From IMG/VR virus record IMGVR_UViG_3300001533_002103, positions 2,184 to 66,183 of that record: a stretch of DNA of 64,000 bases; one strand, given 5' to 3'. Position 1 is the first letter of the stretch, and each line of letters opens with the position of its first letter. The stretch comes from a virus. The position numbers and the translations under genes are program-made. Of the stretch, positions 11,595 to 61,516 are shown one piece after another. A model generated the notes under the pieces. The model did no database searches. It saw only the letters and a program-made list of their open reading frames with translations, and had not been told where the DNA came from.

Positions 11595-12710
11595 ATGAAT
11601 AGATTATTAACTAATGCTAATATAGATTATCCAAGACTGAAAAGATATATTTCAAAGGTGGCTGCTACTGAATTAATGAAATTAACAGAACCATGTTATA
11701 TTCCAAAGTTAAAAGTACACTACTATGAAATATTAAAATTATGTAAGTTGAACGAGTCAACTGTTAAAAACTTTGTAAAAGAATATTACAAAGGAACACC
11801 AGCTTCAAGGTGGAAACTTCAAAATGATCCAATTACTAATCTTCTTATTTGTATAATGTTCTATTTTTTAAATAAAAATGATATCTCTGGATTTAGATTT
11901 ACAATGGTTTTGTTTATTGTTCGATATTATACTAATTTAATAACAAGACATCTCCCAAACTATTGTGATCAAGATACATTTAGATATACATTAGAACATC
12001 TAACAAAAACACATCTCTTCATAAGAGAAAAATCAATTCCCGGAGGGTTATTTCATTTAAGTAAAGAATTAGAAAAAAGATATAAAGACAAAATTAAGAG
12101 AGGAGATGTAGATGATATAGCAAAATTTATAACTGAATCAAGACATAGGGTGGAACAAAGTGTTATATCATTTGCAGAATATTACTATAGATCAAATAAA
12201 GAAGGGAAAGGGTCATCTATCCAAACAGAACCTAGTGATACAGAAGATACATCATTAATATATCAAAGTCCACAAAAAGGAGAAAAAGTAATAAATGATG
12301 TAGTAAAGTATATAACTCTATACAAATCTACCGATCAAAAAGCTTACAATAAAGCAAGAGAAATAACAAAATTAAATACATCAATATGTACTATAATAAT
12401 AAACCAATTAAAAGATTTAAAATATTCAGATAGTATCAAAAATTCTCTTAATGGATTTATTCGGAATCTAACAACTATTGATATGTTATGTGGAAATGAT
12501 TTCTTTATATATGTACAAAAACTAATGGTTATTAGAAGTAGTAAAAATATAAGTATATTATTTAGGAGAGAAATTGATAATATTATTAAACGTATGAAAA
12601 CAGATAGTAATATATTAAAGTCAATGTCTCAATCTTTTGATAGATCTTCCAGCTTATTTCTTGCTTTGTATATCACATTAATTCTTAGAAATAGAACATG
12701 CCCATCTTAA
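11595..12710 (+). CDS. Hypothetical protein at end of tail operon
   Basis: A 371-residue, largely helical, basic protein. There is no membrane segment predicted with confidence, although the segment TNLLICIMFYFLN is hydrophobic. A linker rich in Ser/Thr/Glu (about residues 205-235) separates two helical halves. It follows the gp6-like gene after 4 bp and ends convergently with the minus-strand gene: the two stop codons share the palindrome TTAA at 12707-12710. Probably a virion or assembly protein; family not recognised. Confidence 0.6.
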   Translation: MNRLLTNANIDYPRLKRYISKVAATELMKLTEPCYIPKLKVHYYEILKLCKLNESTVKNFVKEYYKGTPASRWKLQNDPITNLLICIMFYFLNKNDISGFRFTMVLFIVRYYTNLITRHLPNYCDQDTFRYTLEHLTKTHLFIREKSIPGGLFHLSKELEKRYKDKIKRGDVDDIAKFITESRHRVEQSVISFAEYYYRSNKEGKGSSIQTEPSDTEDTSLIYQSPQKGEKVINDVVKYITLYKSTDQKAYNKAREITKLNTSICTIIINQLKDLKYSDSIKNSLNGFIRNLTTIDMLCGNDFFIYVQKLMVIRSSKNISILFRREIDNIIKRMKTDSNILKSMSQSFDRSSSLFLALYITLILRNRTCPS

Positions 12711-13975
12711 GCTGCATAAAAATCAACTGGCAACTGATTATATAAATTAGTGTATTTCTCTACTTGAGCTACTGTTGCTCTGGATTGAGGAGTAGTAATT
12801 TCCCCAGATCCAGCATATTGTGTATGCCCACTATTTGCTCTAGCTTTTATTTCGTCCTCTAAACGAGATCGTTTATATAGTGCCAATTTTCTAGCATTTT
12901 CCTTTTGTAGTGCTTTTTTTCCAAGTTCACCTTCTTCATGAATTACTACTGTATTTGGTTTTTTTGCAAGATCTTTGGCAGAAGTAATTGTTTTCTCTTT
13001 TTCCATTGCTTGTAAATACATCTTTAACGTAGGACGATCTGTCCCATGTTTTCCACCCACTATTATACTATTATATAAACTTCCAAAATCTATTCTAACA
13101 TCAACAATTCCAAGTCTCTGATTATATGCTATCTGTTGTTGATCTCCACCCTTTATCACTGCGATACTAGAAATATATGAAGGATTCAAATCATATATCC
13201 CTGGTGCTTTAACTTTCGAGAAAAACGGCCAAATATATGTTTCCCCGTCTTCTGATTGTGGTAATCCAAGAAGGAGAAGAGCAGCGATTGGACCAATTAT
13301 ATGTTTTTTAGTATCAAATAGACTTCCTGGATTTGGGTTATATAATCTTACAGTCATTGTATAAGAAGGAGCATAAGCACTATTTTTCCACACTTGAGGA
13401 AAATCTACTCTTGCACCACTTAATAACGTATTCGCAACAGACCCAACTCTTGCAGCCATTGTTCCAATCGGACCTCCAATATTCTTCATTGATGTACCAA
13501 AAGATCTTAATTGATTTTGAGCTGCTTCCATTCCAGCCCCTAACGTGCCCACCAGGCCTTCCTGTCCTTTCATTGTACTAATTACTTCTCGTGATAAATC
13601 ACTTAGCTTTTTAGTTCCAAAAAATTGTGAAATAGATGCCATACCCCCAGATGCAACATCTGTCATCTTTTGAAGAAAACTTTCTCCATATTCATTATTA
13701 AATGTATCCGTGGGAAAATTATCAGCCAAGAATGCTACTTTCAGTGGAGTTTTGGTTAATTGATAACCAACTTTCATTAATTGATTACTATAAGTATCCC
13801 AATCATTTTTTAATGTAAAAATTGATAAACCAGGTCTAAACTCTGGTTTACATGGTGTTATTTCCGCAACTGGCATAGAATTCAATTTTAAATCATCACT
13901 TATATAACCAGTTGGAGGTAAACCAATAATTGGATCTATTGAAATACCACCACTATAAACTGATTGTTGTGCCAT
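12707..13975 (-). CDS. Baseplate/tail tube-cap-like protein (gp48/gp54 type)
   Basis: A 422-residue protein. The C-terminal half contains YNPNPGSLFDTKKHIIGPIA, LLGLPQS and a YIWPFFSKVKAPG segment followed by INxS/VDVRIDFGSLY-type strands, similar in layout to tail-tube initiator or cap proteins of myoviruses (T4 gp48/gp54). A Gly/Ala-rich helical insert (about residues 105-190) and a charged C-terminal tail are extra. It lies directly downstream of the tape measure fragment. The assignment is by resemblance and context. Confidence 0.5.
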   Translation of the reverse strand: MAQQSVYSGGISIDPIIGLPPTGYISDDLKLNSMPVAEITPCKPEFRPGLSIFTLKNDWDTYSNQLMKVGYQLTKTPLKVAFLADNFPTDTFNNEYGESFLQKMTDVASGGMASISQFFGTKKLSDLSREVISTMKGQEGLVGTLGAGMEAAQNQLRSFGTSMKNIGGPIGTMAARVGSVANTLLSGARVDFPQVWKNSAYAPSYTMTVRLYNPNPGSLFDTKKHIIGPIAALLLLGLPQSEDGETYIWPFFSKVKAPGIYDLNPSYISSIAVIKGGDQQQIAYNQRLGIVDVRIDFGSLYNSIIVGGKHGTDRPTLKMYLQAMEKEKTITSAKDLAKKPNTVVIHEEGELGKKALQKENARKLALYKRSRLEDEIKARANSGHTQYAGSGEITTPQSRATVAQVEKYTNLYNQLPVDFYAA

Positions 13976-13989
13976 ATTTTTTATCTCCT

Positions 13990-14710
13990 TTAACCGATAT
14001 TTCCATCTACAACTCTAGATACAAATGGGGATACTCCACCCTGACTACTTTGATTATTTCCATTATTTATACTGGTATTAGATGGGCTAGAATTTATTAC
14101 TGTAGAGACTGCATTAGATACAGATGATACAATTCCTTTACCACTTTCACCAATCTTCTGTGCTGTTTCTTTTGCACTTTCTCCTGCTCTTCTAGCTACA
14201 AGTTCAAAACCTGCAAGTTCTTTCTTCACTCCTTTTATGACCATATCTTTAGTATTTGAAAAATTAGTAAATATTTCTTGAGCTTTTTCTGTACCTTCAC
14301 TTGCTATGATAGAAGCTTTATTAATAATTATGGGTCGCACAAATTCTACATTTGCTCCCATTTTTGCTTTTAATACTTCTACTTTTTCTTGAAATAAAGG
14401 TTCTAATTGATCGATGAATTTTTTAGCTTGTGCTTTAATTTTCGATAATTGACGAATAACAGCATCTAATATCATATCTATAAAATTAATTGAAGTATTC
14501 ATTATATCTTTTGCTTTTTGAATTATAATAGGACTTGATTTAATAATAATATCTACTTTTTCTTTAGATGTCATTATTATTTTAGAAATAATATTACTTA
14601 TATATGAAATAGTTCTATTTGTTAAATCTTTTATTGTTTCACCAAATTTAGAAAGTTTATCTTTTATATCTACTTTTTCAATTTGTTCTTTTGCTAAATT
14701 AACAACTTTT
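13990..14710 (-). pseudogene. C-terminal part of the tape measure protein, out of frame
   Basis: The ATG at 14574 opens a 194-residue frame with no ribosome site. Reading the same frame upstream, without a stop, to about 14710 gives one more copy of the tape measure repeat (VNLAKEQIEKVDIKDKLSKFGETIKDL, cited in part), continuing smoothly into MTSKEKVD. This shows the segment belongs to the tape measure protein and has been separated by a frameshift at about 14699-14716. It is helical, with Lys/Glu-rich coiled-coil-like stretches, and ends in a Ser/Asn/Gly-rich tail. Either a real mutation, a sequencing or assembly error, or a programmed +1/-2 shift. Confidence 0.65.
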
Positions 14711-15432
14711 GACTTTTGTTACATTTGTAGAAACAGATGAAACGATTGTGGTAGATAAATCTTTTGTTGTTTTACCTAATTTAGAAGCCTTATCCTTTAT
14801 ATCTATTTTTTCAATTTGTTCTTTTGCTAAATTAATAGCTTTTGTTATATTTGTTGAAACAGATGAAATAACGTTACTATATATACTTTTTATTGTTTCA
14901 CCCAATTTAGAAGCTCTATCCTTTATATCTATTTTTTCAATTTGTTCTTTTGCTAAATTAATAGCTTTTGTTATATTGGTTGAAATAGATGAAACGATTG
15001 TAGTAGATAGATTTTTTATTGTTTCACCCAATTTAGAAGCTCTATCCTTTATATCTATTTTTTCAACTTGTTCTTTTGCTAAATTAACAGCTTTCGTTGC
15101 ATTTGTTGAAATAGATGAAACGATTGTAGTAGATAGATTTTTTATTGTTTCACCCAATTTAGAAGCTCTATCCTTTATATCCACCTTATCAATCTGTTCT
15201 TTTGCTAAATTAATAGCTTTCGTTGCATTTGTAGAAACATTTTTAGATAAATCTTTTGTTGTCTCACCCAATTTAGAAGCTTTATCTTTTATATCTATTT
15301 TTTCAATCTGTTCTTTTGCTAAATTAATAGCTTTCGTTGCATTTGTAGAAACAGATGAAACAACACTTTTAGATAAATCTTTTGTTGTCTCACCCAATTT
15401 AGAAGCTTTATCTTTTATATCTATTTTGTTGA
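14590..15432 (-). repeat. Tandem 126-bp (42-residue) repeats inside the tape measure gene
   Basis: Six in-frame copies of a 42-residue unit (IDIKDKASKLGETxKDLS... NATKAINLAKEQIEK), one of them shortened to about 38 residues, plus a seventh copy in the shifted frame. Each spans about 126 bp. Such length-variable coiled-coil repeats are plausible in a tail-length ruler and are also prone to slippage and recombination. Confidence 0.85.
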
Positions 15433-18904: not shown

Positions 18905-19813
18905 TTATATTAATTTATTATATGCCTGTGCATATTTTGATGTTGGTTTTATTTCCACACCAACACACAATATTTCTGATGGAATTATTAATTCTTGTAC
19001 ACATAAGGTTAATTTATTTGGTACGTTAAATGTATCCCTATATGCTCTATATAAAGGACCCATTATATACCTGAAATCCTTCAAACTCCTAACAAATGAA
19101 TTCATATTAGCAATATATAATTTTAGGAAAACAATAACTCCTCTAAGTATCTTTGTAAATTCATCTTTACTAAACGCAGTAATTGGAGAAAATTCTTCTT
19201 CTAATATTTCATAATACTTTAATAAAGCTGAATTAAAATCACTAGATGATTCTAGAGTCTTTTTACTATTCTCAAAATTATCATATATAAAGCGGACAAT
19301 CTTATCAATATTTTTAGGAGTTGATTTCAGATTAAATATATTTGTAAATAGAGATGTATAATATGTATTTAATTCTGATTTAAATAAAGACATAAAAGAA
19401 GACGGAGATTTATGTGAAAATAAATGTATACATTCATGAAGAGTAAGTTGTGCCAAAGCATAATTGGATGAAAATCCAAATGCATTAATTTGATTATCAA
19501 TTAAAATAAATACCTTCTCTGATCTTGGATCAAAAAATCCAAGTATTAATTTATTAGCAGTACTTCCAAAAAACTTGTATAAAATAGTCATTGCTATTCC
19601 TTTATGTTGAAAAACAGGAATAACTATATTTTTTTCAATTAGTTGTGATAATACGGGATTAATTAATTTAGCAGCATTTGTTTTTTCCATTGACTTTAAA
19701 TACTTTGATTTTAATTTATCAGAAGAATAAAGTTTATTTCCATCTATTACTGCTGCTGCCTTTAATCCAATAGGAGGTGAAAACAATTCTTCAATAACAT
19801 TATTATCTATCAT
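18905..19813 (-). CDS. Virion-type protein with HExxH motif
   Basis: A 302-residue protein. LTLHECIHLF (about residues 127-136) contains a zinc-metallopeptidase HExxH helix, preceded by the strand KVFILIDNQI, as in minimal metallopeptidase folds. No clear third ligand glycine motif (HExxHxxGxxH) is seen, so activity is uncertain. It sits between terminase and tape measure genes, the usual place for tail and structural genes. A maturation or host-wall protease role is possible. Confidence 0.55.
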   Translation of the reverse strand: MIDNNVIEELFSPPIGLKAAAVIDGNKLYSSDKLKSKYLKSMEKTNAAKLINPVLSQLIEKNIVIPVFQHKGIAMTILYKFFGSTANKLILGFFDPRSEKVFILIDNQINAFGFSSNYALAQLTLHECIHLFSHKSPSSFMSLFKSELNTYYTSLFTNIFNLKSTPKNIDKIVRFIYDNFENSKKTLESSSDFNSALLKYYEILEEEFSPITAFSKDEFTKILRGVIVFLKLYIANMNSFVRSLKDFRYIMGPLYRAYRDTFNVPNKLTLCVQELIIPSEILCVGVEIKPTSKYAQAYNKLI

Positions 19814-19827
19814 TTATTATATCTCCT

Positions 19828-21495
19828 TTATGAAATATTATACATTTCTAAAATATCTACAAACTTTTCCTGTTTCTTTTCAGGGTCTTCCATATTTCTT
19901 TTTACCATATCCATAATTTTTGAATTAGTAAGTTCACTTATTCCACTTCCTCCCTCAAGATTTAAAGATAAAATACTTGCCATCTCATCAATATTCCCAC
20001 CATGCTGACTACTTATTACTACAGGAGGATCAAATTTTCTAACATAAAAACAGCAAGAAGTAGCCAATGCTAAGTCATCATGTGCCCCATCTTCTGCTTC
20101 TACTTTTCCACTTGTTTTAGTAACTAACCCAATTAGTTCTAATGCTAATCTTTTTGATTTTATAATTTCTGGATATCGAGAAATATAACTATACAATGAA
20201 TCTATCATTAGTGGTCTTGTTTTTACATTTGTACTTAATCCTGGTATTCTTTTTTCCCCTCTTTTCTCTTTATACAACATAAATGAAAATTCCGAATTAT
20301 TCATTTCTTCCGCTACTTGATTACCATAACTGTTGTTTTCTACAACAAGAGTTCCTGGATATAGTGAACAAGCAACTTTTACAACTTTTACAAAATCTCC
20401 AACTTTACATTTTGTAACATATTCCCATACTTGTTCTAACGTTTCATAATCCCAAACAGTTATAGCAGATTTATCTTCACCAAATTCTGGGGCAGTATCA
20501 ACCCCTATTAAATAATGTCTTCCTGGAATCGAATTACTAAATTTCCATGCTTCTCCATTAAATAGTTTTAGAATTTCCAATGGTTGATTCTCTATTAATT
20601 GTAATTTTTCCATTATATCACTTTCAAAGAAAGAACCTTCAGTTGGAAGAAATTTTAATTCTAATTCTTGAGATATTTTTCTCTGATCATTATCAAATAA
20701 ATCACATTGAGTCTTATACCAACTTGGATCATTTTTTAACTCTGGTATATTACTCCAATGAATTGTATATTGTTTGAATATTCCTTCTCCAACAGAAGCT
20801 TTTGAATAATGTTGAAAAAACCATTTTCCAACCCCTGTCGTTTTATTTGGAGTAGATAATATTAAAGTACCATAGGGAATACCCATTTTACGAGCATGCA
20901 TCTGACTAGTAGATAATGAAGAAACCATAGATGTCCATGCTACATCTATAAATTTAATAAATGCTGCTTCATCAATAACTAAAAAAGTAATAGCTTTTCC
21001 TCTAAAAGTCTTTTCAGGAGCATTTGGTGCAACAGGTGAGGCATATACTTTTGATCCATTTGTAAGGATAAATGATTGTTCTGTTCTTTTTGCAAACCCT
21101 CTACCCATTACTCCTTTGGGGGGTTTCATCCAATCAGGAAGTTTTTCAACCATCCCTCTTATTGCTCTTGCAAAGTCAGTGGCTTCTTTTCCATCTTTTG
21201 AAATAATTCCAGCTACAACATTGTCATGGAAAACAATTAACCACGTTGTATATGCTTGTGTAATTGTTGATATTCCAATTTGCCTACTTTTTAGAACTAA
21301 AACATAATGTTCATTTTTTAATAATGTAGTAAAATTTACTTGTTCATCATATGGTTGTAATAATTGATCACCACCAGGGAGTTCTATATAAATGTAGTTT
21401 CTACAAAAATAATCAAAATTTTTACTACATTTTATAAACTCAGCAATACGATCTTCTGCAAGTTTAAAGTATTGTTGCCTTTTGTGCTGAACCAT
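19828..21495 (-). CDS. Terminase large subunit (packaging ATPase and nuclease)
   Basis: A 555-residue protein with both expected domains. The ATPase domain has a Walker A-like LKSRQIGIST (residues 69-77; the adenine/Walker Lys is displaced to the front, as in many phage terminases) and Walker B LVIDEAAF (DE 175-176). The nuclease domain has IGVDTAPEFGEDKSA (about residue 330) and a terminal Asp pair in EDGAHDDLALA (about residue 478), matching the RNase H-like metal triad. It packages DNA into proheads. A candidate promoter motif and a terminator lie upstream. Confidence 0.93.
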   Translation of the reverse strand: MVQHKRQQYFKLAEDRIAEFIKCSKNFDYFCRNYIYIELPGGDQLLQPYDEQVNFTTLLKNEHYVLVLKSRQIGISTITQAYTTWLIVFHDNVVAGIISKDGKEATDFARAIRGMVEKLPDWMKPPKGVMGRGFAKRTEQSFILTNGSKVYASPVAPNAPEKTFRGKAITFLVIDEAAFIKFIDVAWTSMVSSLSTSQMHARKMGIPYGTLILSTPNKTTGVGKWFFQHYSKASVGEGIFKQYTIHWSNIPELKNDPSWYKTQCDLFDNDQRKISQELELKFLPTEGSFFESDIMEKLQLIENQPLEILKLFNGEAWKFSNSIPGRHYLIGVDTAPEFGEDKSAITVWDYETLEQVWEYVTKCKVGDFVKVVKVACSLYPGTLVVENNSYGNQVAEEMNNSEFSFMLYKEKRGEKRIPGLSTNVKTRPLMIDSLYSYISRYPEIIKSKRLALELIGLVTKTSGKVEAEDGAHDDLALATSCCFYVRKFDPPVVISSQHGGNIDEMASILSLNLEGGSGISELTNSKIMDMVKRNMEDPEKKQEKFVDILEMYNIS

Positions 21496-28171: not shown

Positions 28172-31100
28172 TTATTCATGTTTTAATCCTATTACTGTTA
28201 AATATGAATTAAATAAATGTAGAGATTCTGGTTTCTTATCTATTTCTTTGTCATCATCACTTACTAAGGCTGTCTCCACATTCTCTTTAATAAATTTATT
28301 TTGTAAATCTATACAATCAGATTTTGTAGTTAACATTTCATTTAGATTTTTCATACCACCCTGACTAATAATAGCATTCACTTCCATCTCACCAAGACGT
28401 TGACCTCCATCCATTTTTCTTCCACCAGGTGGTTGTAATGTTCTTCTAGTATATGGTCCTATTCCCCTACCAGCTAATCTATCTTCTGCAATATGTACCA
28501 ATTTAAAGAAATATAAATATCCAACAGCAATAGTATTAATCAACCAACCCTTAGTATGAGGATCATATACTCTATATTTATATAATGTTCCTGTATATTT
28601 CATAGCTTCATATAATTGATCAGATTTAATTGACTCAAACGGAGGTTGAATAATTGATAAGTCATCTATAAAATCATCATCAATTATCTCTGGTGTCTGG
28701 TCAACAAATTGCTTATAATACCAATTTCCCTCTGTATTATCTATAATCTTAATATATTTAAATAAGTAATCTTTCACTAATTTTTGGTCATCATTTTTCT
28801 TAATCATTTCTTTTAATTGGTTCTTTAAATCTATAACAGACATTGATAAATGTAATTCAAATAATTGTCCGATATTCATTCTAGATATAATTCCTAATGG
28901 ATTAATACATATATCTACATGCTTCCCATTTTCTAAAATAGGCATTCTGTCATGTTTTATAATAGTAGATATAACACCTTTATTTCCATGACGATTTGCA
29001 ATTTTGTCACCAACAGACAATTTTCTTTCATATATTCCTCCAATTTCAACTAACATCCCATTAATTCTTTCCCCTTTATTTCTATACTTTCCAGTCCAAT
29101 TAAATTTATTCAAGTTCTTTTCTTTAATAATTTCTTCTGCTCGTATTGGAGGAAAATGCTCATTAATAAGTGATATAATTTCTTTTTGTTTTGCTTTTTG
29201 TCTGTCAATTTTTTTCTTTACCCAATCATCAAATTCCATTACTTGTTTACACCAATTATTTGGATATATATTTACTCGTTGTATTAACATATCTTTATCA
29301 ACAGTTAATTCTTGTTCATCCTCAAATACTCTTCCAGAATAAGTATAATCATTAGGAACTTTCCTTTTTATAGCAAATACTCCTCCCTTGAATATTCTCT
29401 GATTAATATGTGGCAATGGTCTATAAGTTCCCTTCTGAATAGGACCGAGAACATAATTCGGTGGTAATATAAATGATAAATTTCGATAATGAACACTCCG
29501 AAACATTTCTTCTAATCTATCCGAAATTATTAATCCATCTTCATAATTATATCCAAAATAAGGCATTACAGCAGTAAGTAAATTCTTTCCAATATTTATA
29601 TTACCATCATCATCAATAAATGAACTTTTCGCTAAAATGTCTCCCTTTTTAAATCTATCTCCCTTCTTTACTTGTTTATATAAAACATAAAAATTATCAA
29701 CATAATTGTTATTAAAATCAATATCTATAATATCGACATCCCCATCATCATATGAGACAATCAAATAATTATTAATAACATTGTTTCTTGTATCAGATAC
29801 AACTACTCCATCCTTTTTTGCTCTAATACAAAACTTTGTATAATCTGAATAAGTTGATTCACACCCCGATTGAATTATTGGCTTATCAAAATTCAATAAT
29901 TGAATAGCTTGTCTCATCTGAGATGATGACATTTGTAATCTCGTTTGATCATCATGCTCCAAAAATGGAACGGTAGATACTACAGGAGAAATTATTTGTT
30001 TATCCAATTGTTCATCAGTAAATTTTAAATTTTCATCAAGATTTACATTTGGCAATAAGTTTTGTAATACACCACAATTATCTCGGTCTGGTGTATCCAC
30101 TGGACATATTCTTCCTAACATTGATGAATATACATCTCTTAAATGTGTTGGTACATTTTCTTTTTTAAATCCTCCTGGACCAACCAGACTAGTTCTACAT
30201 AATTTAGTTATTTCATCTAGAGGATTAATTGAAAAATCAAACTGTACAATATCTGAAACATTACAATCAGATAATATTTTTGTTGAATTAATATTAAATA
30301 ATGGTTTAGTAGAAGTTCTATTTACTATACATAAATCAAAAATTGATTGAGCAATATGGGATAAAACAATATATTCAAAACATCGTATTCTTTTATTCGT
30401 AAATAATAAATCACTGTAACTACTTCTGTCTGTTAACACATTTAAAATAGAAATAGATTCATCTCCCTTTATTACCTCCACTAATTCATCTATGACAGAA
30501 TTCGTCTTAAAAAACTTTGCTGACATTATATCGATTTTTGGTATTATATCTAATGCATATATTATTGTTTCTCCCTTTTTTAATGGATTGTATGTAGTAT
30601 ACAGTCGACCAACTTCTGTAATAAAGTCTTTTCTCTCAAATCCTTCAGAACTTTCATAATATCCCTTTAAATCTAATCTCAATTTTGAAAACATATCTTT
30701 ATTTACATCAATAGAATCTAATTGAAAATCATCAAAAATCTTATCTCTATCATATTTACAAAACAATAATAATGCTAATGGAACATGCCCTTTAAGAAAA
30801 TTCACTTTTATAAATGGTAATTCGTTAGTATCTTCTACAAAAATTGTAGCAACATTTGTTTTAAGCTTTATCTGATCTCCCCTAGTTATTATTGGAAGAT
30901 CATATAATTGAAAAAATGGTATCTTTCTTCTACCATTTATAATTATATAATTATCTTCTATCAACTTTGGGATATAAACACTTAAATCTAATTCTTGTAT
31001 GTCTTTAGTTAATTTTATAATAAAGTTCTCTTTTAAACTCCTAAACAACTCTCCTTGAGAAAGTCGTGCAGGTTTTATTCCTATTTCTTTTATAGTAAAT

Positions 31101-31222
31101 CCAATCTCCTTTACTGGTTCTAGCATCATTTTTACATTATTTAAGAGATTAGCATATTCTCTTTTTCTAATGTCAAAAATGTTATCTTCTTTTAACTCAA
31201 AATTTTTATTAATTATATTCAA
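28172..31222 (-). CDS. Phage DNA-directed RNA polymerase, beta-subunit homologue (set 1)
   Basis: A 1016-residue, single-chain beta homologue, short compared with bacterial RpoB (about 1200-1340). Conserved beta blocks in order: LVGPGGF...RICPVDTPDRDNCG (about residues 345-380), YFGYNYEDGLIISDRL, GDKIANRHGNKGVIS (about residue 740; the clamp/active-site lysine region) and GGRKMDGGQRLGEMEVNAI near residue 945. The start is TTG at 31222 after GAGGAGG. It lies 22 bp after the beta-prime gene, with which it forms a polymerase independent of host RpoB/RpoC. No sigma or alpha homologue was recognised nearby. Confidence 0.93.
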   Translation of the reverse strand: MNIINKNFELKEDNIFDIRKREYANLLNNVKMMLEPVKEIGFTIKEIGIKPARLSQGELFRSLKENFIIKLTKDIQELDLSVYIPKLIEDNYIIINGRRKIPFFQLYDLPIITRGDQIKLKTNVATIFVEDTNELPFIKVNFLKGHVPLALLLFCKYDRDKIFDDFQLDSIDVNKDMFSKLRLDLKGYYESSEGFERKDFITEVGRLYTTYNPLKKGETIIYALDIIPKIDIMSAKFFKTNSVIDELVEVIKGDESISILNVLTDRSSYSDLLFTNKRIRCFEYIVLSHIAQSIFDLCIVNRTSTKPLFNINSTKILSDCNVSDIVQFDFSINPLDEITKLCRTSLVGPGGFKKENVPTHLRDVYSSMLGRICPVDTPDRDNCGVLQNLLPNVNLDENLKFTDEQLDKQIISPVVSTVPFLEHDDQTRLQMSSSQMRQAIQLLNFDKPIIQSGCESTYSDYTKFCIRAKKDGVVVSDTRNNVINNYLIVSYDDGDVDIIDIDFNNNYVDNFYVLYKQVKKGDRFKKGDILAKSSFIDDDGNINIGKNLLTAVMPYFGYNYEDGLIISDRLEEMFRSVHYRNLSFILPPNYVLGPIQKGTYRPLPHINQRIFKGGVFAIKRKVPNDYTYSGRVFEDEQELTVDKDMLIQRVNIYPNNWCKQVMEFDDWVKKKIDRQKAKQKEIISLINEHFPPIRAEEIIKEKNLNKFNWTGKYRNKGERINGMLVEIGGIYERKLSVGDKIANRHGNKGVISTIIKHDRMPILENGKHVDICINPLGIISRMNIGQLFELHLSMSVIDLKNQLKEMIKKNDDQKLVKDYLFKYIKIIDNTEGNWYYKQFVDQTPEIIDDDFIDDLSIIQPPFESIKSDQLYEAMKYTGTLYKYRVYDPHTKGWLINTIAVGYLYFFKLVHIAEDRLAGRGIGPYTRRTLQPPGGRKMDGGQRLGEMEVNAIISQGGMKNLNEMLTTKSDCIDLQNKFIKENVETALVSDDDKEIDKKPESLHLFNSYLTVIGLKHE

Positions 31223-31243
31223 CTTGGAAATCCTCCTCTATAA

Positions 31244-33958
31244 TTACACCTCTTTTCCTAGTAATAATTTATCAAATATTCCTGAATATGAATCTGGTTT
31301 CAACATACTATTAATAATATTTTGCCTTGGATTTGAAAATGCAAGTCCCAGAAGCCAACTTTCATATGCAGGAACTGATTGTATACTATGAAATTCCGGT
31401 GAATGTTTCTCTCTATCTTTCATTAATCTCCATTTTTTTCTTCCGACCCACATGAGCTGTGATACAATACATTCATAATGTACATGATATATACTTCTAC
31501 TAATTCCATATACTTCAAATAAATCTTCTATAATTTCAGAAGGTGTTTTATTTCCAAACCTATGAAAAATTTCACTAGCTCGTGAAAGATCGTTAATAAT
31601 ATCCATTTGTTTCATTGAATCTGAAGATGAATTATCATCTGTTTGTTTTGTAACAGCAACTCCAGATGTATGAAATGTTCTAAGTGTCAATTGGGTACTT
31701 GCTTCTCCTAATGTTTGAGCAGCAATTATTCCAATAAAAGAACTATTTAAACTCTTATAAAGATCCCCATAACATTTATGACATATCTTATTACTTTTAC
31801 AGAATATGGGACTCCTAAGTTGAATTGTTTTATTAATATAATTCTTATAATTATCTTTAGTAATTTTTTCTAATTCACCATTTGTAGTAATATATCTATT
31901 GATTAATGATTTTGCTTTTCTTTCATTTTTAACAAAAACACTTAAAGTATCTGTAGTTCCACAGTCATCTAAAACAGGATCAATTTGCAAATTAACAGAA
32001 CTGAATATCAATTTTCTTGAAAGATATCCAGACCTTCCTGTATTTAATGCAACATCTAATAATCCCTTTCTACTTCCATATGTAGATGTAAAAAATTCTT
32101 CTGGTGTTAGTCCATCTACTAAACTATGTTTAATGGGAGTGTCTAAAATAATCCCTTCAAAATTTGAAATAAAACCCCGAGTTAGAACTATTTGTCGAAC
32201 CTGATCCCAACTCCCTCTAGATCCAGATTCAATCATATATGCATAATTAAAATTTTTACGTAGAAAATTTTCTGTATCTTTACTAGACACTTTATCTAAT
32301 TGACTTATTATTGTGGAATTTTCTTCCTCAGAATACAAGTTATCTCTAATTTCTAATGCATTCTTTATAATAAAAGAGTCTAATGATAATGTTACACCTA
32401 ATAATGTAGAATATTTAAATCCAACTCTTTTAATATTATCCAGAGTATTTTTTACAATTTCAACATTATAATTTTCTACAACATCATTTAGTATTTGCAA
32501 TAATTTTTTCTTATCTACTATTTCATTTATTAATTGATAATCACTAGGCAAACAATTATTAAATGATCTTCTTCCCTTTGAAATCAATTCCCCTTTACAT
32601 TCTACTAAATCTTGATCTGGAAACATATTTGATGTTAAACTATATATTCCAAGAACTATATCCTGACTTGGAATGAGAGAAATAGATTCATCAGCAGGAC
32701 TGATAAGATTTTTTGTAACTAGGAACTTATCAATTATTTCTTGTTTTGTCTCTTCACTAATTGGAATATAAACAGCCATTTGATCTCCATCAAAATCTGC
32801 ATTAAATGGAGAACAGATTAGAGGATGAACTTTAATGACGTGATCTGTTGTAACTTTTATTTTAAATCCAAGTACACTCTGACTATGAAGAGTTGGTTGT
32901 CTATTTAATAGACAAACTTGATCTTTAGCTAATTCTTCACATATTTCTAATAAATGTGGTTGTTCTTGTTTAATACATAATTCTATATAATCTAATGCCT
33001 CATTAAATATGCGATCATGACCAATCTCAATTAACTTTTTTGCAATTGGAATATTAAATAATTTTAAAAACATTTGATATGGTAATGCACATTCATCTAA
33101 GTTTAATGTAGGGTCAGGAACAATAATTGCTCTCCCAGAAAAATTTACCCTTTTTCCTAATATATTTCCTCGAACTAATCCACTCTTTTTAGAAAGTTTT
33201 TGTATAATATGAATATATAATTCATTAACAGCCTTTTGTAATGGAATAAAATATGCATAATATACTCTTCTATCTTTAATATCAATAACTGTTCCTTTTA
33301 TACTTTCCTTTTTTGTAAGTATTTGTGTATAGAATCTATTAATTTCATCAAGAGAATGACTATCTTTAGATGCTGATTTAGCTGCTGGTCTAAGATCTGG
33401 AGGAAGAACAATTACTTCATTTAAAACTAATTTATCAATATTCTCTTTAATAATCTTCCATTCTTCATATCCGTTTTCTAAAAATTCGTCTGCAAAATAT
33501 CTAACTAATTGATCTATAGCATCCAGAGCATACCATTTCTTAACACCGCTTGGAATGTTCTCTTGAGTGGTAGTAGCAACAAATTCATCATCTATCATAT
33601 ACAGGACACTATTTTCATCACTAAGAAACAAATTTATATTAGATTTTAATATTGGATCAGCAACTTTATATAATACATCTTTAAACAATGGATTCATAAC
33701 TGGTAATGGCAATACTATTTTTGCAAATCTCCTACGTCTTTCCACATTGCTAACAATATCAACACCACATATATTACAAGTACTTCCTTGCTTAGAAATA
33801 CCATAATATGTACCACATTGACAAGTATAATTTTTAATCGGACCAAAAATTTGTTCAGAAAACAGTCCATCTGGATGATAATGTCTTCTATTAATTAACT
33901 TTGGAGTTTTTACTTCTTTGAGATCTTTACAGAAATCATTATCTAGAAAACTTGACAT
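31244..33958 (-). CDS. Phage DNA-directed RNA polymerase, beta-prime-subunit homologue (set 1)
   Basis: 904 residues, complete. The N-terminal zinc ribbon is intact (C46, C48, C61, C64), followed by the RRRRFAKIVLPLPV clamp strand and GLVRGNILGKRVNFSGRAIIVPDP. The catalytic magnesium loop NADFDGDQMAVY is at residues 386-397. Trigger-loop and bridge-helix regions (GSRKGLLDVALNTGRSGYLSRKL and AAQTLGEASTQLTLRTFHTSG) follow. A CxxC zinc site near 690 is also present. It is unsplit, unlike the fragmented subunits of phiKZ- or AR9-like phages. ATG at 33958 with GGAGT upstream. Confidence 0.95.
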   Translation of the reverse strand: MSSFLDNDFCKDLKEVKTPKLINRRHYHPDGLFSEQIFGPIKNYTCQCGTYYGISKQGSTCNICGVDIVSNVERRRRFAKIVLPLPVMNPLFKDVLYKVADPILKSNINLFLSDENSVLYMIDDEFVATTTQENIPSGVKKWYALDAIDQLVRYFADEFLENGYEEWKIIKENIDKLVLNEVIVLPPDLRPAAKSASKDSHSLDEINRFYTQILTKKESIKGTVIDIKDRRVYYAYFIPLQKAVNELYIHIIQKLSKKSGLVRGNILGKRVNFSGRAIIVPDPTLNLDECALPYQMFLKLFNIPIAKKLIEIGHDRIFNEALDYIELCIKQEQPHLLEICEELAKDQVCLLNRQPTLHSQSVLGFKIKVTTDHVIKVHPLICSPFNADFDGDQMAVYIPISEETKQEIIDKFLVTKNLISPADESISLIPSQDIVLGIYSLTSNMFPDQDLVECKGELISKGRRSFNNCLPSDYQLINEIVDKKKLLQILNDVVENYNVEIVKNTLDNIKRVGFKYSTLLGVTLSLDSFIIKNALEIRDNLYSEEENSTIISQLDKVSSKDTENFLRKNFNYAYMIESGSRGSWDQVRQIVLTRGFISNFEGIILDTPIKHSLVDGLTPEEFFTSTYGSRKGLLDVALNTGRSGYLSRKLIFSSVNLQIDPVLDDCGTTDTLSVFVKNERKAKSLINRYITTNGELEKITKDNYKNYINKTIQLRSPIFCKSNKICHKCYGDLYKSLNSSFIGIIAAQTLGEASTQLTLRTFHTSGVAVTKQTDDNSSSDSMKQMDIINDLSRASEIFHRFGNKTPSEIIEDLFEVYGISRSIYHVHYECIVSQLMWVGRKKWRLMKDREKHSPEFHSIQSVPAYESWLLGLAFSNPRQNIINSMLKPDSYSGIFDKLLLGKEV

Positions 33959-47262: not shown

Positions 47263-47832
47263 TTATTCTAAATCGGTAGGTTCTAGATCTTCCGCTTTCA
47301 GTTCCACATAATTATTTTTCGTTTCATATACTCTAACAAATGAAACATCTAATTGTCTTTTCTTCAAACTATTAAATATATAAAAGGCAAAATATTCTGA
47401 TGTTGGAATGGGAAAAGTATGATTAAGAAATCTATGATCAAACTTATTATGAACAACTTCTTGAAGTATATTTTTCAACTTACCAAAATCTATAACCATC
47501 CCATTAGACAAATTAAGATACCCCTTTACTCCTACTGTTATTTCTACCGTATGCCCATGTAAAAATCCACAAGTTGGATGACCGGGTAAATAATGAGCAA
47601 TATCAATCGTAAATGTTCTACATACAGTCATCGAAACTCCCAGTTGCACTTTTGAAAAACAGGAAGGACATAAGAGTAGAACATTTCCTACAGTATTATT
47701 ATTTGAATTTCCATCTTTATAATATGGAGTTAAAAATTCTGTTTCAGTGTCACCACAACAACTACATTGATTAATATCCCTAACTTTATCATTTAAATAA
47801 TTATCCATCAATCCTTTTTCGATTTTTATCAT
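47263..47832 (-). CDS. queD: QueD-like 6-carboxytetrahydropterin synthase with N-terminal zinc ribbon
   Basis: A 189-residue protein. The PTPS domain has FTIDIAHYLPGHPTCGFLHGH (motif residues H80, C88, H92, H94: zinc triad and catalytic Cys), MVIDFGKLK, FDHRFLNH, PTSEYFA and VRVYET. The first 65 residues are an extra zinc-ribbon-like part (CSCC at 23-26 and CPSC at 55-58) not typical of QueD. It makes the 7-deazaguanine precursor from dihydroneopterin triphosphate supplied by FolE2. It overlaps the topoisomerase gene by ATGA. Confidence 0.85.
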   Translation of the reverse strand: MIKIEKGLMDNYLNDKVRDINQCSCCGDTETEFLTPYYKDGNSNNNTVGNVLLLCPSCFSKVQLGVSMTVCRTFTIDIAHYLPGHPTCGFLHGHTVEITVGVKGYLNLSNGMVIDFGKLKNILQEVVHNKFDHRFLNHTFPIPTSEYFAFYIFNSLKKRQLDVSFVRVYETKNNYVELKAEDLEPTDLE

Positions 47833-49136
47833 TTCAAAATCTCCTTATATTCTTCTAAAACAAAATTTCCTAAATTATGTAAATTATTATCAACTACTTT
47901 TATCTTATTTTCGAGATCCGAAAGATCTACATTTAATGTTATTAATTTTCTAATTTTATGTTTTCCAATTAATTCCTTCACAGAAGACTCATCTACTCCA
48001 GATTTTTTTGAAATCTCTTTAATCATCATATTTGGTTCCATCTTCTGACTTAATATTTGTAATAAATATGGTTGAATCTTTTTTAAATTCTGAATCTCAA
48101 CCATTTGATTTTGTAATCTATCAAATTCTGTTTTCAACATATTATTACAAACAGAAGAAAAGGAATTAAATGTAGTAATTAACATATCATCTATAGATAC
48201 TAATCTTACATTCTGATTACCATCAACAACTATATTTTCAAAAGATATCTTTCCTTTAATAGTATCTTCTAACTTCTCTACAAAATCCATATAAATTTTA
48301 TCTCTATTTCTTTGTTTTATTACTTCAAATTGGATTTTCGTATTAGTTACAGATAAATCCGTATACGCGATATCTTGTCTTGTAATTTCATCTGAAAATC
48401 TATTTAATATATTTTCAAATCTTCGTCCTGGTTGCCATGATAGTAAATCTACAATATTATGTTGTGGATCTTTTTTAATTATACCACTTATATCAATTGT
48501 AGCTTTCCCTTTTGTTAGAAGAGTCTCAAGATCTGATTTAGAAGCCTCAATTTTACAATCCGTAATTGGAGAAATTGTTGGCTTTTTATCCTCTATTTTA
48601 AGTAGCCATAATAATCTTCTATATAAATCTTCAATTTTATAACAAGGAATATAACTCCTATATCCAAAACCAATTCCTTGAGTAAAATCATTTCCCATTA
48701 AACATAGAGGAAACATTGTTGGAAGATATGATGGTTCTTCCTCACCCAACTCATTTCTATACCACTCCACATAATCAATATATTTAAATGATAAGTCATA
48801 TGTTGACTTTGCTAATTTACATTCAGTATATCTAGAGGCAGCAGCTGGTTCGGATTCCACTCCAAGATTACATCCAAAATTTCCTTGTCCTTCTAGAAAT
48901 CCTTGTCGAACTAGCTGCACTATAGAAGAATATACTGATGCATGTGGGTGATAATTCCCAATTACATACCCATCTACTCTAGCACTTTTTACTAGATGAT
49001 CTCTTGCAATTTTATATGCAGATAAAAGAATCCTCCTCTCAACTGGTTTTAGACCATCAATAACTAAAGGAAATGCTCTTGATGAATTAATAAATTGCCC
49101 ATATTCTTTATATAATGATGGAACAATATTATCCAA
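47829..49136 (-). CDS. Type II topoisomerase subunit A homologue (T4 gp52-like)
   Basis: A 435-residue protein. NYHPHASVYSSIVQL (residues 61-75), QGNFG and EPAAASRYTE (catalytic Y103) match the breakage-reunion domain of GyrA/ParC/gp52. It lacks a C-terminal DNA-wrapping beta-pinwheel, like the T4 medium subunit, so it is probably a decatenating rather than supercoiling enzyme. The partner ATPase is encoded at 50527. Confidence 0.92.
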   Translation of the reverse strand: MDNIVPSLYKEYGQFINSSRAFPLVIDGLKPVERRILLSAYKIARDHLVKSARVDGYVIGNYHPHASVYSSIVQLVRQGFLEGQGNFGCNLGVESEPAAASRYTECKLAKSTYDLSFKYIDYVEWYRNELGEEEPSYLPTMFPLCLMGNDFTQGIGFGYRSYIPCYKIEDLYRRLLWLLKIEDKKPTISPITDCKIEASKSDLETLLTKGKATIDISGIIKKDPQHNIVDLLSWQPGRRFENILNRFSDEITRQDIAYTDLSVTNTKIQFEVIKQRNRDKIYMDFVEKLEDTIKGKISFENIVVDGNQNVRLVSIDDMLITTFNSFSSVCNNMLKTEFDRLQNQMVEIQNLKKIQPYLLQILSQKMEPNMMIKEISKKSGVDESSVKELIGKHKIRKLITLNVDLSDLENKIKVVDNNLHNLGNFVLEEYKEILK

Positions 49137-50526: not shown

Positions 50527-52314
50527 TCAGAACTTGCCTTCTAAAAGTTTTTTCTTTTCTTCAACACTAGAAAATAATCTTGTTAATTTTGCTAAATTTT
50601 TTGTATATTCTACTGGAATTAATTTTCTTGTATCTTCTTTAATCAAACAAAATTTTAATTGATGAGGTGACAATTCTCCCAATCCCTTAAATCTACTAAT
50701 ATGTCTTTTTTCCTCTATTGCTTTTTTTAGATCTTTTTCATCCCAAAGCGGAATGAATACATTTTTTTCATTAATTGCAAATAATGGTGTTTGTGCAATA
50801 AAGAACTTACCATCTTTAATAATCTGGGGTAACAATACAGCAAATATCATGGAAAGTAGACTAGTTATATGTGCACCATCTGGATCGGCATCTGAAGCTG
50901 CAATAACTTTACCATATCTAAATCTAGTCATATCAAAATCAGATCCAATTCCAGTCCCCACTGACCTAATTAATTCCTCTATTTCTTTATTCCGTAATAT
51001 ATCTTTTGTATTAATAATATTTGGAATTTTTCCTTTTAGGGGAAGAATAGCATGTTGTCTTGGATCTCTACATTGTATTAATCCCCCAGAAGCAGAAACT
51101 CCTTCAACTATAAATAATTCCCCATTCGGAGAAGTACAGTCTCTCAACTTAGTAAATTTAGTAGATCCCCGTTTTCCATGATTCAACGGTCTCATCTTTC
51201 TGGCTTCCATTCTTTTTCTATACTGTTCAAATATTGATAAAATACTTTCCAATTGATTTTGATTTTTATCAAAATAATTATTTAATTTAATTATTAATTT
51301 ATTACCCAATTTATCTAAATATGTTTTCCGATTTACTAACTTATCTTTTGTTTGTCCATGAAATTCTGGTTTTATAAGATAAAGACTCAAATAAGCTCGT
51401 AAACCACAAAAACAATCCTGGGCTTGAAAATGATAATCAAGTTTCTTTCCTCTAGATACAAAAATATCTTTTAATATATTATAGAATAAATTTAAGTGGG
51501 TTCCTCCTCCAACTACAGGTAATAAATTTATAGACGTCATTATATTTGATGTAATAGATCCATTTAATGAATAAGTAAATAGTACATTAAATTTTTCTAA
51601 ATTATCATTCATATCAATTGAAATCGGGTCTAAACATTCATCATTTTTATTAATACAATACTTTTGAAAATATTCTTCTCTACTAATCTTTATTACTTCT
51701 CTTTTCTTATCAACATTTAATACAAAAGTTATGTTTGGTAATTCCGCAGAGGCAACTAATAATCTACTTCTAATTCTATTTAAATCTACCTCTGAAGATT
51801 CAAATATTTCTTCATTGGGAATAAACTGAATTTTAGTGGAAAATGGTATATCCCCTTTATATTTATCTATTTTTTTATCTTTTAAAATAGAATTCTCAAA
51901 TTCAAAAACTGCATGTTGACCATCTCGATATATTTCAACTATATAATATTTACTAAGAGCATTAACAGCTACCAAACCAATTCCATGTAATCCTGAGACA
52001 ATTTGATAAGCAATTTTTATATGTTGGAATTTTGCCCCAGAAAACATTTTTTCAGATATAATCTGAGGAGTATTATTATCTATCGGAATTCCCCTCCCAT
52101 TATCCATAATACTAAAAGTGTTATCTTTCTTAGAAATATTAATAGCAATAATAGAAGCAAATCCAGCTAAACCCTCATCAAGTGAATTGTCAAGAACTTC
52201 TTCTATTAAGTGAGTTGGGGTATCTGTTTCACCAATATACATCCCCGGATTTAAACGAATATGATCAATTTCGTTTAGCACTGAAATCTGATTTGAATTA
52301 TATCCTTTTGACAT
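50527..52314 (-). CDS. Type II topoisomerase subunit B homologue (T4 gp39/gp60-like)
   Basis: A 595-residue protein. GHKL ATPase motifs EVLDNSLDEG (about residues 39-48), DNGRGIP and GLHGIGLVAVNAL are present, followed by a transducer domain, then a TOPRIM domain with EGVSASGG and SDADPDGAHI. It is slightly shorter than GyrB. It pairs with the A subunit at 47829; three small genes lie between. It is preceded by a GAGGAG site. Confidence 0.94.
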   Translation of the reverse strand: MSKGYNSNQISVLNEIDHIRLNPGMYIGETDTPTHLIEEVLDNSLDEGLAGFASIIAINISKKDNTFSIMDNGRGIPIDNNTPQIISEKMFSGAKFQHIKIAYQIVSGLHGIGLVAVNALSKYYIVEIYRDGQHAVFEFENSILKDKKIDKYKGDIPFSTKIQFIPNEEIFESSEVDLNRIRSRLLVASAELPNITFVLNVDKKREVIKISREEYFQKYCINKNDECLDPISIDMNDNLEKFNVLFTYSLNGSITSNIMTSINLLPVVGGGTHLNLFYNILKDIFVSRGKKLDYHFQAQDCFCGLRAYLSLYLIKPEFHGQTKDKLVNRKTYLDKLGNKLIIKLNNYFDKNQNQLESILSIFEQYRKRMEARKMRPLNHGKRGSTKFTKLRDCTSPNGELFIVEGVSASGGLIQCRDPRQHAILPLKGKIPNIINTKDILRNKEIEELIRSVGTGIGSDFDMTRFRYGKVIAASDADPDGAHITSLLSMIFAVLLPQIIKDGKFFIAQTPLFAINEKNVFIPLWDEKDLKKAIEEKRHISRFKGLGELSPHQLKFCLIKEDTRKLIPVEYTKNLAKLTRLFSSVEEKKKLLEGKF

Positions 52315-57399: not shown

Positions 57400-60300
57400 T
57401 TATGATCCCTTTCCTAACATCAAAGCTACAAAATAACTATTTAAAAGTTGTAGTGTGGGAGATGTCTTTGGTTTTCTATATTTTCCCTTTCCTGTAAGTA
57501 TTATATCAGAAATAATTTCATTTTTAGTCATATGATCATCACTTAATGGACCAAATTCTTCTTCTAATAAATAAGGACAATTATAAGATAAAAGACTATA
57601 TGTATCTCCCTCTCCAATTCTTTGACCTCCAAATCTGGCCTTTCCCGCTGTTGGTTGTTGTGTTTTAGCAACAGATGGACCAGTACTTCTAGAAGTTACT
57701 TTCATTTCTCCAATATGTTCCAATTTATTAATATATGTATAACCAATCGGAACTGGAGATTTTGTTTTTACTCCATAATATGGTAAATATAATTGATATG
57801 AAGGATTTAATTTCAATATCTTAAATGCACTTTGTATCTGTTTATATTTCGGAGATTTAAATGGAGATGCTATAATTGGAACAAATCCATTATTCCTTAT
57901 TTGTTCCATCATTAGATTAAATTTGTCATTACTAAGTCTTGATAAACTTTGGATCATCTTGGCACTGAATTTCTTATTTGGTGAAGTATCTAATGCTGAA
58001 TATACATTTCCAAATAATTGAACAATCTTTGTTTTATCTCTCAACTGTAATGATATATTTGCTAATGACTTTGAAATTAAACCAGTATATAATTCATAAA
58101 GCTGTCCCAAATTCATCCTATTAATTAAACCAAGGGGATTAAGAATTATCTCCACTTTGTCTCCCCACGGAGTTCTTGGCATTAAATTATCCTTTTCTAT
58201 CAAACTTATAATTCCCTTATTTCCATATCTATTACATAATTTATCTCCAACATCCACTTTTAATTCTTGTTCAATTTTAAATACAATTAATATTCCTTTT
58301 ACTGAAATTCCTCTCACAATATATTTTTCCTTTGGTATCTTCTTATATTTTTTATTTGTTTTTCTGATTAACTCCGTTAATCTAGGAAAAGAATCTTCAC
58401 TTAAATTAGAAAACACTTCAATATCGACAATTGTTCCTCCAGGACTCTTCTTAATATATTGTCCAGATACAATACTAATCCCCTCCTCTTCCTCTGATTC
58501 CTCATATCCAATGATTTCATCTATTTCACCAATTGTTTTATTAAATATTATATCCCCCTTTTTTGTTTTATCTCCTATATTTGCCATCGTTATTAATCTA
58601 TCAGATTTTGATAAAGTGACTTCTTCAACAATACCATGTAATGAAGTAAGTTTATCATTTTCTACAATACTTTCGCTAAGAACAATTCCATCTTCAAAAT
58701 TATATCCCCTATATGGCATAAGAGCAACTAACAACGTTCTTCCCATTGCTATAGTTCCATTTGAAATACAGGCCCCTTCTGCAATAATATTATTTTCTCT
58801 AACTTGTTGTCCCTTTGATACTTTTGGAACAAAGGTACTGAGAGTATTCTTACCGGAACCAGACTTTAAATGTACAGGTGTTATATCAACATTTGACTTC
58901 TTTCCGTCTTTACAAAGAATAGTAATACTATCTTGTTTTACATCTTCTATTTTCCCAGCACACGGAGACTTTTTTATAAAACTATCAGAAAGAACATTTG
59001 TTAAAACATTTTCATATCCAGATTGCACTGCTGGTGGGGTAGGATTTTTTAATGGAACAATTTGTTTTGCTTGACTTGTTGCCATCATCATCCTTGCTCC
59101 ATCATTACATTCAATAAAAGGAATCATCGATGATGTAGTAGAAAGAATACCAGATCTTTCATTATCGTCTTCATTCTTAGTCATAATCAATCCACGAGAA
59201 GAAGTTATAAGAGCATTTACAGTCAATTGTTGAGAAATACCAATTGTATCTCCCTCTGGTGTATCAACAGGATCAACATTTCCAAAATAACTAGGATCAA
59301 CACTTCTATCCTTTACTTGGATAGCTCTTTTATCTGGTATTCCTGATATTCCTTTCCCGATTGGTGAAATTCTAGTAATAGAAGACATTTCCTCGATTGG
59401 ATTAGAATACTCCATATTAGTTACTAGATCCAAATTTACAAACTGTGACATTAGCTTTTCTGGTTGAATATAAAATTTTGCATCTTTATTTCCAGATAAT
59501 ACTTGTTCTCGATATTCTGTATATGCACTTAAAATTTGTTTTTGTAATAGATGTACTAAAACCTCTGAATTTCTAATTCGTTGATTTGATAAATCATTTC
59601 TTCTTTGAAAAAATCCAGTTACAACTTTCCTTGACATATATTCCATTATTGTTTCTAAATCTGTTGGTAATTGTTTATTTACTAATACTTGTATAGCAAC
59701 GGGGTCAACAATATTTTCTATACAACTAGAAATTCTTGAAATTGAATTTACTCTTCCTGTCATTTTAATAATCATGTTTTGAAAATACTCTTTACTCCCA
59801 AATATACCATCAATATCTAAATTACTTATATCTTTTTCTCTTGTAAAACTTTTACATAACTCTTCCTTAAATTCAGAATCTACATTATCAAATATCAAAT
59901 ATTCTGTTGGGGAAATTTTTATTGCAAATAAATCATCTTTTGTTTTCTTACTACTAATTCGATAAGATAATTTATATCTTTTTAATGTTTCCTCAAAACC
60001 AAAAGCAAAGGATAAAATTACAAATAATGGAATCCAATAAGAACCAATATAAACTCTAAGATATTTTTCAGTCTTAGTTCTTTTGCTTTCTATATGAAAA
60101 ATAGAAAAAGAACTTTCAAATTTAGAATCATATGGTTGTGGGAAAGAAATAGGACATACAACAATTTGATTTAACAAACACTTTTTCTGACCACTAACTC
60201 TAAATGTACCACTAACTGGATCTATTTTAGGAATTGTTATTTCAATATGATGTTCATTTCCAAACTCGTCTTTTAAATTAGCTTTTAAAGTAGACTCATC

Positions 60301-61515
60301 AGATTTAGCAATTTCTCCAGTCTTAATTGGTTTATCAACAATTGTTATACCAACAGTCTTTATTGGAATTTCTTTATTTTCAAGAAGTTTAAAAGTACGT
60401 TCTACATCATTCTTTAAATTTATTTCAAAATCGACTTGTCTCTTTTTAAAAATATGTTCTGGAGTTTTATGATCTATTCGATCTGGAATACTGGATGACT
60501 CTGAAACCACATTAGTTGAATAAGATACTGTTTCCTCCGGTTCTAAAATATTATCTACATATTTTTTATCTATAGCTTTTATTGTGATATCTAATTTTTT
60601 ATCTGGTATTTTTTGTGATATCTTTGTGGATTTAGATACATCACTACTAACTTTGTACATTACAGATGTTACAGATATTCTTTTTAATTCATTTTTTGGA
60701 ACCTCTCCAGAAATTATTTTTTCAACCTTGTTTTGGTTCTTTTTTAAATAATCTTTTACTGACTCTTTAGTCTTCTTTAAATTCCCTGGTGAAATCTCCT
60801 TAGATATACTATTTACAACTATATTTGCAGCTTGGTCTATTTCTTCCTTTTCCTGTTCTGTATCTATATCTACTAGGTCAATCCCCTTAATAGATTTCAG
60901 ATATTGAAATACTCTAGAAAATTTGTATACTCCATCTTTTACTAAAAGTCGATAATTAACTATATCTCCCTGAATAAGACACAAAATAAGATCATCAAAA
61001 ACTATATTTCCATCTTTCATTTGTCTCATCAAAGGAAAAAATTTTCGATTAATAAAAGTACTAAATTTTTTTGTAACATCTATAGAATAAATTAATATCT
61101 TCCGATACTTTTGTGGAAAAGAAGATATATTACCATCTATAAAACTTGTTAAAAGCATACCAGCTCGTTGTCTATAATTTTGTGGATGATATTTTTCATC
61201 CAAAGTATTAATATAATTCGTTAAATCTAAAAACTCACTCCTATCTTGTGGAAACTTCATATGGGAAGAATATGGTATTAATCCAATCTTCTTATACTCA
61301 TCTCTAAGTTTTGTATCCAATCTAGTTCTTGGGATTTTTGTAAGTGGAACAATCACGGTTCTAACATCAGTTCTTCTTATATTTAATTTTAAATAATCAT
61401 CAACAAATAAAGAATTTTCTGAAAAATATGCTAATAAATAAGGGTTCTTCCTATCAATTGGAAATCGAATATCTTTTACTAATTGTGTATATTGTTTAAT
61501 ATTTTTAAATAACAT
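57400..61515 (-). CDS. Phage DNA-directed RNA polymerase, beta-subunit homologue (set 2)
   Basis: 1371 residues, close to bacterial RpoB length and longer than set 1. Blocks in order: PIGKGISG...DPSYFGNVDPVDTPEGDTIG (about residues 705-745), YRGYNFEDGIVLSES, GDKLCNRYGNKGIISLIE (about residue 1100) and GKARFGGQRIGEGDTYSLL, where bacteria have GEMEVWAL. A Lys/Ser-rich, low-complexity insertion lies at about 240-400. It is only distantly similar to the set 1 beta. In phiKZ-like phages one such set is packaged in the virion and one acts later. Confidence 0.93.
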   Translation of the reverse strand: MLFKNIKQYTQLVKDIRFPIDRKNPYLLAYFSENSLFVDDYLKLNIRRTDVRTVIVPLTKIPRTRLDTKLRDEYKKIGLIPYSSHMKFPQDRSEFLDLTNYINTLDEKYHPQNYRQRAGMLLTSFIDGNISSFPQKYRKILIYSIDVTKKFSTFINRKFFPLMRQMKDGNIVFDDLILCLIQGDIVNYRLLVKDGVYKFSRVFQYLKSIKGIDLVDIDTEQEKEEIDQAANIVVNSISKEISPGNLKKTKESVKDYLKKNQNKVEKIISGEVPKNELKRISVTSVMYKVSSDVSKSTKISQKIPDKKLDITIKAIDKKYVDNILEPEETVSYSTNVVSESSSIPDRIDHKTPEHIFKKRQVDFEINLKNDVERTFKLLENKEIPIKTVGITIVDKPIKTGEIAKSDESTLKANLKDEFGNEHHIEITIPKIDPVSGTFRVSGQKKCLLNQIVVCPISFPQPYDSKFESSFSIFHIESKRTKTEKYLRVYIGSYWIPLFVILSFAFGFEETLKRYKLSYRISSKKTKDDLFAIKISPTEYLIFDNVDSEFKEELCKSFTREKDISNLDIDGIFGSKEYFQNMIIKMTGRVNSISRISSCIENIVDPVAIQVLVNKQLPTDLETIMEYMSRKVVTGFFQRRNDLSNQRIRNSEVLVHLLQKQILSAYTEYREQVLSGNKDAKFYIQPEKLMSQFVNLDLVTNMEYSNPIEEMSSITRISPIGKGISGIPDKRAIQVKDRSVDPSYFGNVDPVDTPEGDTIGISQQLTVNALITSSRGLIMTKNEDDNERSGILSTTSSMIPFIECNDGARMMMATSQAKQIVPLKNPTPPAVQSGYENVLTNVLSDSFIKKSPCAGKIEDVKQDSITILCKDGKKSNVDITPVHLKSGSGKNTLSTFVPKVSKGQQVRENNIIAEGACISNGTIAMGRTLLVALMPYRGYNFEDGIVLSESIVENDKLTSLHGIVEEVTLSKSDRLITMANIGDKTKKGDIIFNKTIGEIDEIIGYEESEEEEGISIVSGQYIKKSPGGTIVDIEVFSNLSEDSFPRLTELIRKTNKKYKKIPKEKYIVRGISVKGILIVFKIEQELKVDVGDKLCNRYGNKGIISLIEKDNLMPRTPWGDKVEIILNPLGLINRMNLGQLYELYTGLISKSLANISLQLRDKTKIVQLFGNVYSALDTSPNKKFSAKMIQSLSRLSNDKFNLMMEQIRNNGFVPIIASPFKSPKYKQIQSAFKILKLNPSYQLYLPYYGVKTKSPVPIGYTYINKLEHIGEMKVTSRSTGPSVAKTQQPTAGKARFGGQRIGEGDTYSLLSYNCPYLLEEEFGPLSDDHMTKNEIISDIILTGKGKYRKPKTSPTLQLLNSYFVALMLGKGS

Positions 61516-61516
61516 T

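Follow-up and report, generated by a model that had tools for sequence, protein, structure and literature searches.

A private 7-bp tandem duplication probably interrupts a phage tape measure gene within its repeat array

A gene for a tape measure protein (TMP), whose main reading frame stops inside a repeat array while the repeat continues in another frame, can be read in several ways: as two neighbouring genes, as one gene whose ribosomes change frame, or as one gene broken by mutation or by assembly error. Such a gene lies in the window considered here, a stretch of 64,000 nucleotides from a virus record of 97,212 bases (28% GC). On the minus strand, a frame of 1395 codons (18886-14699) terminates ...STNVTKVKSC-stop. 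The +1 frame is open from a stop at 14721-14719 and runs to 13990; its last part is an ORF of 194 residues (14574-13990). The original prediction offered three explanations: an indel, an error, or a programmed shift that makes two tail-length products.

Several features identify the 1395-aa frame as the main, N-terminal part of a TMP. PHROG tape measure families (1535, 4372, and 15478) match it weakly, with E values of 2e-5, 4e-5, and 3e-4; residues 1-460 match the TMP ORFs of syntenic relatives; and its start codon is preceded by a Shine-Dalgarno (SD) sequence with a duplex energy of -6.9 kcal/mol. A Pfam search found no TMP domain in this frame. (Pfam matches to GPIID_WHD and DbpA were rejected, being below the curated cut-off and located on coiled-coil or repeat regions.) Like TMPs that set phage tail length, this is a long coiled-coil protein with several weak profile matches, encoded just 5' of a tail structural gene; it differs in being apparently broken by an indel and in carrying a 42-aa repeat array that none of 57 relatives shows at this strength.

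The neighbourhood supports this identification. All on the minus strand, terL encodes a T4-like terminase large subunit (19828-21495; phrog_2, E=3e-32), followed by a conserved 302-aa protein, p302 (18905-19813), found in this position in nearly all relatives, then by TMP, and then by a conserved virion structural protein, probably the tail tube (12707-13975; phrog_20401, E=9e-20), which is the usual direct 3' neighbour of TMP. Relatives were gathered through the tube-like protein (34 loci, at 39-57% identity) and the terminase (73 loci, of which 71 are at 59-68% identity), and the order terL-p302-TMP-tube is kept in dozens of these loci. One locus with the same module, L109 (JAGXNV010000078.1; terL 65% identical), is binned in a Heimdallarchaeota MAG, a placement that may reflect mis-binning or may hint at a host.

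The break falls within a coiled-coil-like array. Tandem Repeats Finder (TRF) places this array at 14623-15427 (minus strand), with a period of 126 bp and 6.4 copies; each unit encodes 42 residues, or six heptads, except for one unit of 38 residues (12 bp less). In an autocorrelation scan that compared the TMPs of the 57 relatives, self-identity at period 42 reached 54/60 in this protein, the highest of all, and at most 34/60 in the relatives; a self-blastp search for repeats gave no match. Judged by these comparisons, so large and nearly identical an array is unusual among relatives and is consistent with recent slippage or recombination here.

At 14718-14705, within the last unit of the array, the sequence reads CAAAAGT CAAAAGT. 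This exact tandem duplication adds 7 bases and moves the frame by +1, so that the last 42-aa repeat carries on in the +1 frame as QKSKVVNLAKEQIEK...; read from just after the stop at 14721-14719, that frame begins QKSKVVNLAKEQIEKVDIKDK... Much of this had been anticipated. The main frame does end TKVKSC-stop inside a repeat that continues in another frame; the 7 extra bases relative to other copies are real features of the record, and the earlier description, TCAAAAG next to AAAAG, gives the same duplication in rotated form. By itself the duplication is uninformative: this AT-rich window has 7 loci with an exact 7-bp tandem duplication, against 6.7 expected by chance. The informative point is its position, precisely where the frame breaks, set against five other repeat copies that lack it.

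What does the second frame encode? Were the 194-aa ORF an independent protein, TMP and its neighbour would be two genuine genes, and an ATG does stand at 14574. However, that ATG has no SD: its anti-SD duplex energy of +1.8 kcal/mol is the worst among 33 starts scored, as the original prediction of a frame without a ribosome site implied, whereas the adjoining tube gene start scores -8.7 kcal/mol. The 48 codons between the stop at 14721 and this ATG contain no ATG, GTG, or TTG, and the interval originally quoted, 14575-14716, fits the uninitiated part of the frame. In the +1 frame, repeat homology continues undiminished past the break and extends through this pre-ATG region. Moreover, the ORF ends as TMPs end. 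When a profile of the C-terminal 90 residues of the TMPs of 57 intact relatives was searched against the 735 stop-to-stop ORFs of the window, it matched only the ORF at 13993-14718 (E=3.2e-11; next best 0.23); the common C-terminus consists of a V/N/S-rich stretch and a glycine-rich linker, ending in a motif like VxxGNIG or GDIG. Two separate genes, each with its own ribosome site, had been named as an arrangement in relatives that would speak against a frameshift. The opposite was found: no relative has a separate gene at that place. A pair of genuine genes is thus extremely improbable. On the evidence of repeat homology and the C-terminal profile, the 194-aa ORF is the end of TMP, whose C-terminal part spans 13990-14718 on the minus strand, and the two frames descend from a single gene.

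In 57 distinct relatives, TMP is a single unbroken ORF of 871-1628 residues (median 1049) that mostly ends about 0-110 nt from the next gene, usually the tube gene. The duplication is private with respect to this set, whose members are at about 40-65% protein identity and lack the 42-aa array. No closer virus emerged: neither the 194-aa ORF nor the 1395-aa frame retrieved a confirmed relative when viral contigs were scanned, a distant blastn search against phages gave no match, and a 53-base pattern next to the junction, searched exactly, turned up no near-identical virus among the records open to that search.

TMP is broken in 4 of 61 relatives, each time at another place. L010 carries a +1 break by an A6 run near the 3' end (at about 7.5 kb); L033, a -1 break in mid-gene (about 6.2 kb); L087, a nonsense codon from a single C-to-T change, in a stretch where its intact twin L100 is identical at 599 of 600 positions; and L098, several breaks, along with a broken terL. 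Other genes of the module are also sometimes broken, with up to 2 of 80 copies for terL, none of 72 for p302, and up to 2 of 67 for the tube gene, where in one case the match may extend beyond the stop. The rate, roughly 1.5-3 breaks per 100 kb, is alike in TMP, terL, and tube, and TMP breaks per kb look like background in this sample.

Could the ribosome nonetheless restore the frame? A programmed +1 frameshift, in which the ribosome slips on AAA-A ahead of AGU, or a hop of 7 nt between the matching AAA codons of the two copies, would yield a short and a long TMP. The site allows it: tRNA-Lys can re-pair on an AAA one or seven bases on, and either event restores the frame, although an AAA A site that permits re-pairing in +1 is a weak signal and common in AT-rich DNA. 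Phages do use such events, as in lambda gpG/gpGT and T4 gene 60 (PMC5009743). The resemblance to gpG/gpGT lies in a frame change within a tail gene, but that well-known shift is -1, conserved, and located in the tail chaperone gene (PMC5009743), whereas the change here goes to +1, is not conserved, and affects the tape measure gene itself. Similarly, a short block flanked by matching codons recalls the translational bypassing of T4 gene 60 and of the Magnusiomyces byp elements; here, however, the block is unconserved and has no downstream structural signal that could be found, and an indel explains it more simply. The mRNA downstream of the shift site folds like shuffled sequence (z -0.37), and a scan of the sequence upstream revealed no AGGAG-like, SD-like stimulator. 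The frame change is conserved in none of the 57 intact relatives, and the sole other +1 break, that of L010, is at an unrelated site. Programmed recoding is disfavoured because a conserved shift should recur in relatives, and the four broken TMPs, sporadic and different, have nothing in common; we consider it improbable. The relatives therefore speak against one of the three explanations first offered and support the other two, indel and error. We know of no earlier case of recoding in a tape measure gene; if true here, it would be the first, and nothing in this analysis supports it.

This leaves the single gene, which is very probably interrupted in this record by the private 7-bp duplication in its array, as far as comparison with relatives can tell. 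A slippage-type indel, real or artefactual, is the likeliest explanation because relatives are intact and breaks occur at background frequency. The cause would be replication slippage, repeat-associated misalignment, or an artefact of array assembly; we infer slippage, and the duplication could be another slippage or recombination event in a stretch that may have had others. The repeat units differ at so few codon positions that the age of the break could not be estimated from them.

Repeat arrays are prone to assembly errors, and a pure assembly artefact, with the gene intact in the virus, has a little short of an even chance. The site lies in an array with exact repeats of up to 77 bp; the record is metagenomic, and the change in it is a short, exact duplication; and the relatives include one broken record with an intact, near-identical twin (L087 and L100). 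Yet downstream of the junction the flanking repeat stays exact over just 22-29 bp or so, a distance easily covered by short reads. Nor was any other frame break detected in window genes that could be compared with relatives, at about 3-31.5 kb (outside the fast-evolving 14-17.5 kb) and 57-60 kb; for this reason a real indel is slightly favoured over a generally poor record, and between mutation and assembly error we lean narrowly toward mutation.

Read literally, translation would halt at TKVKSC, with no initiation on the piece downstream. The shortened product would lack the last 240 or so residues and, with them, the conserved C-terminal motif of the relatives; such a truncated TMP would presumably be non-functional. 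A duplication that is both real and tolerated, with a mix of full-length TMP and TMP shortened at the C-terminus arising from slippage, from a 7-nt hop, or from reversible 2-to-1 DNA slippage in the population, seems quite unlikely. Most likely the break is an ordinary mutation or an assembly error rather than a new route to two tail lengths. For annotation, the 194-aa "gene" should be recorded as the end of TMP, within one interrupted gene. More generally, about 2 frame breaks per 100 kb provide a yardstick wherever a programmed shift is claimed for a phage gene from a metagenome.

Elsewhere in the window, two separate beta/beta' pairs of multisubunit RNA polymerase are encoded on the minus strand (28172-33958 and 57400-63994), with Rpb2 and Rpb1 Pfam domains at E values down to 1e-49. 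Two such sets recall the phiKZ-like jumbo phages; here they stand beside the T4-like terminase, subunits of a type II topoisomerase (47829-49136 and 50527-52314), an SbcC-like gene, and a helicase.
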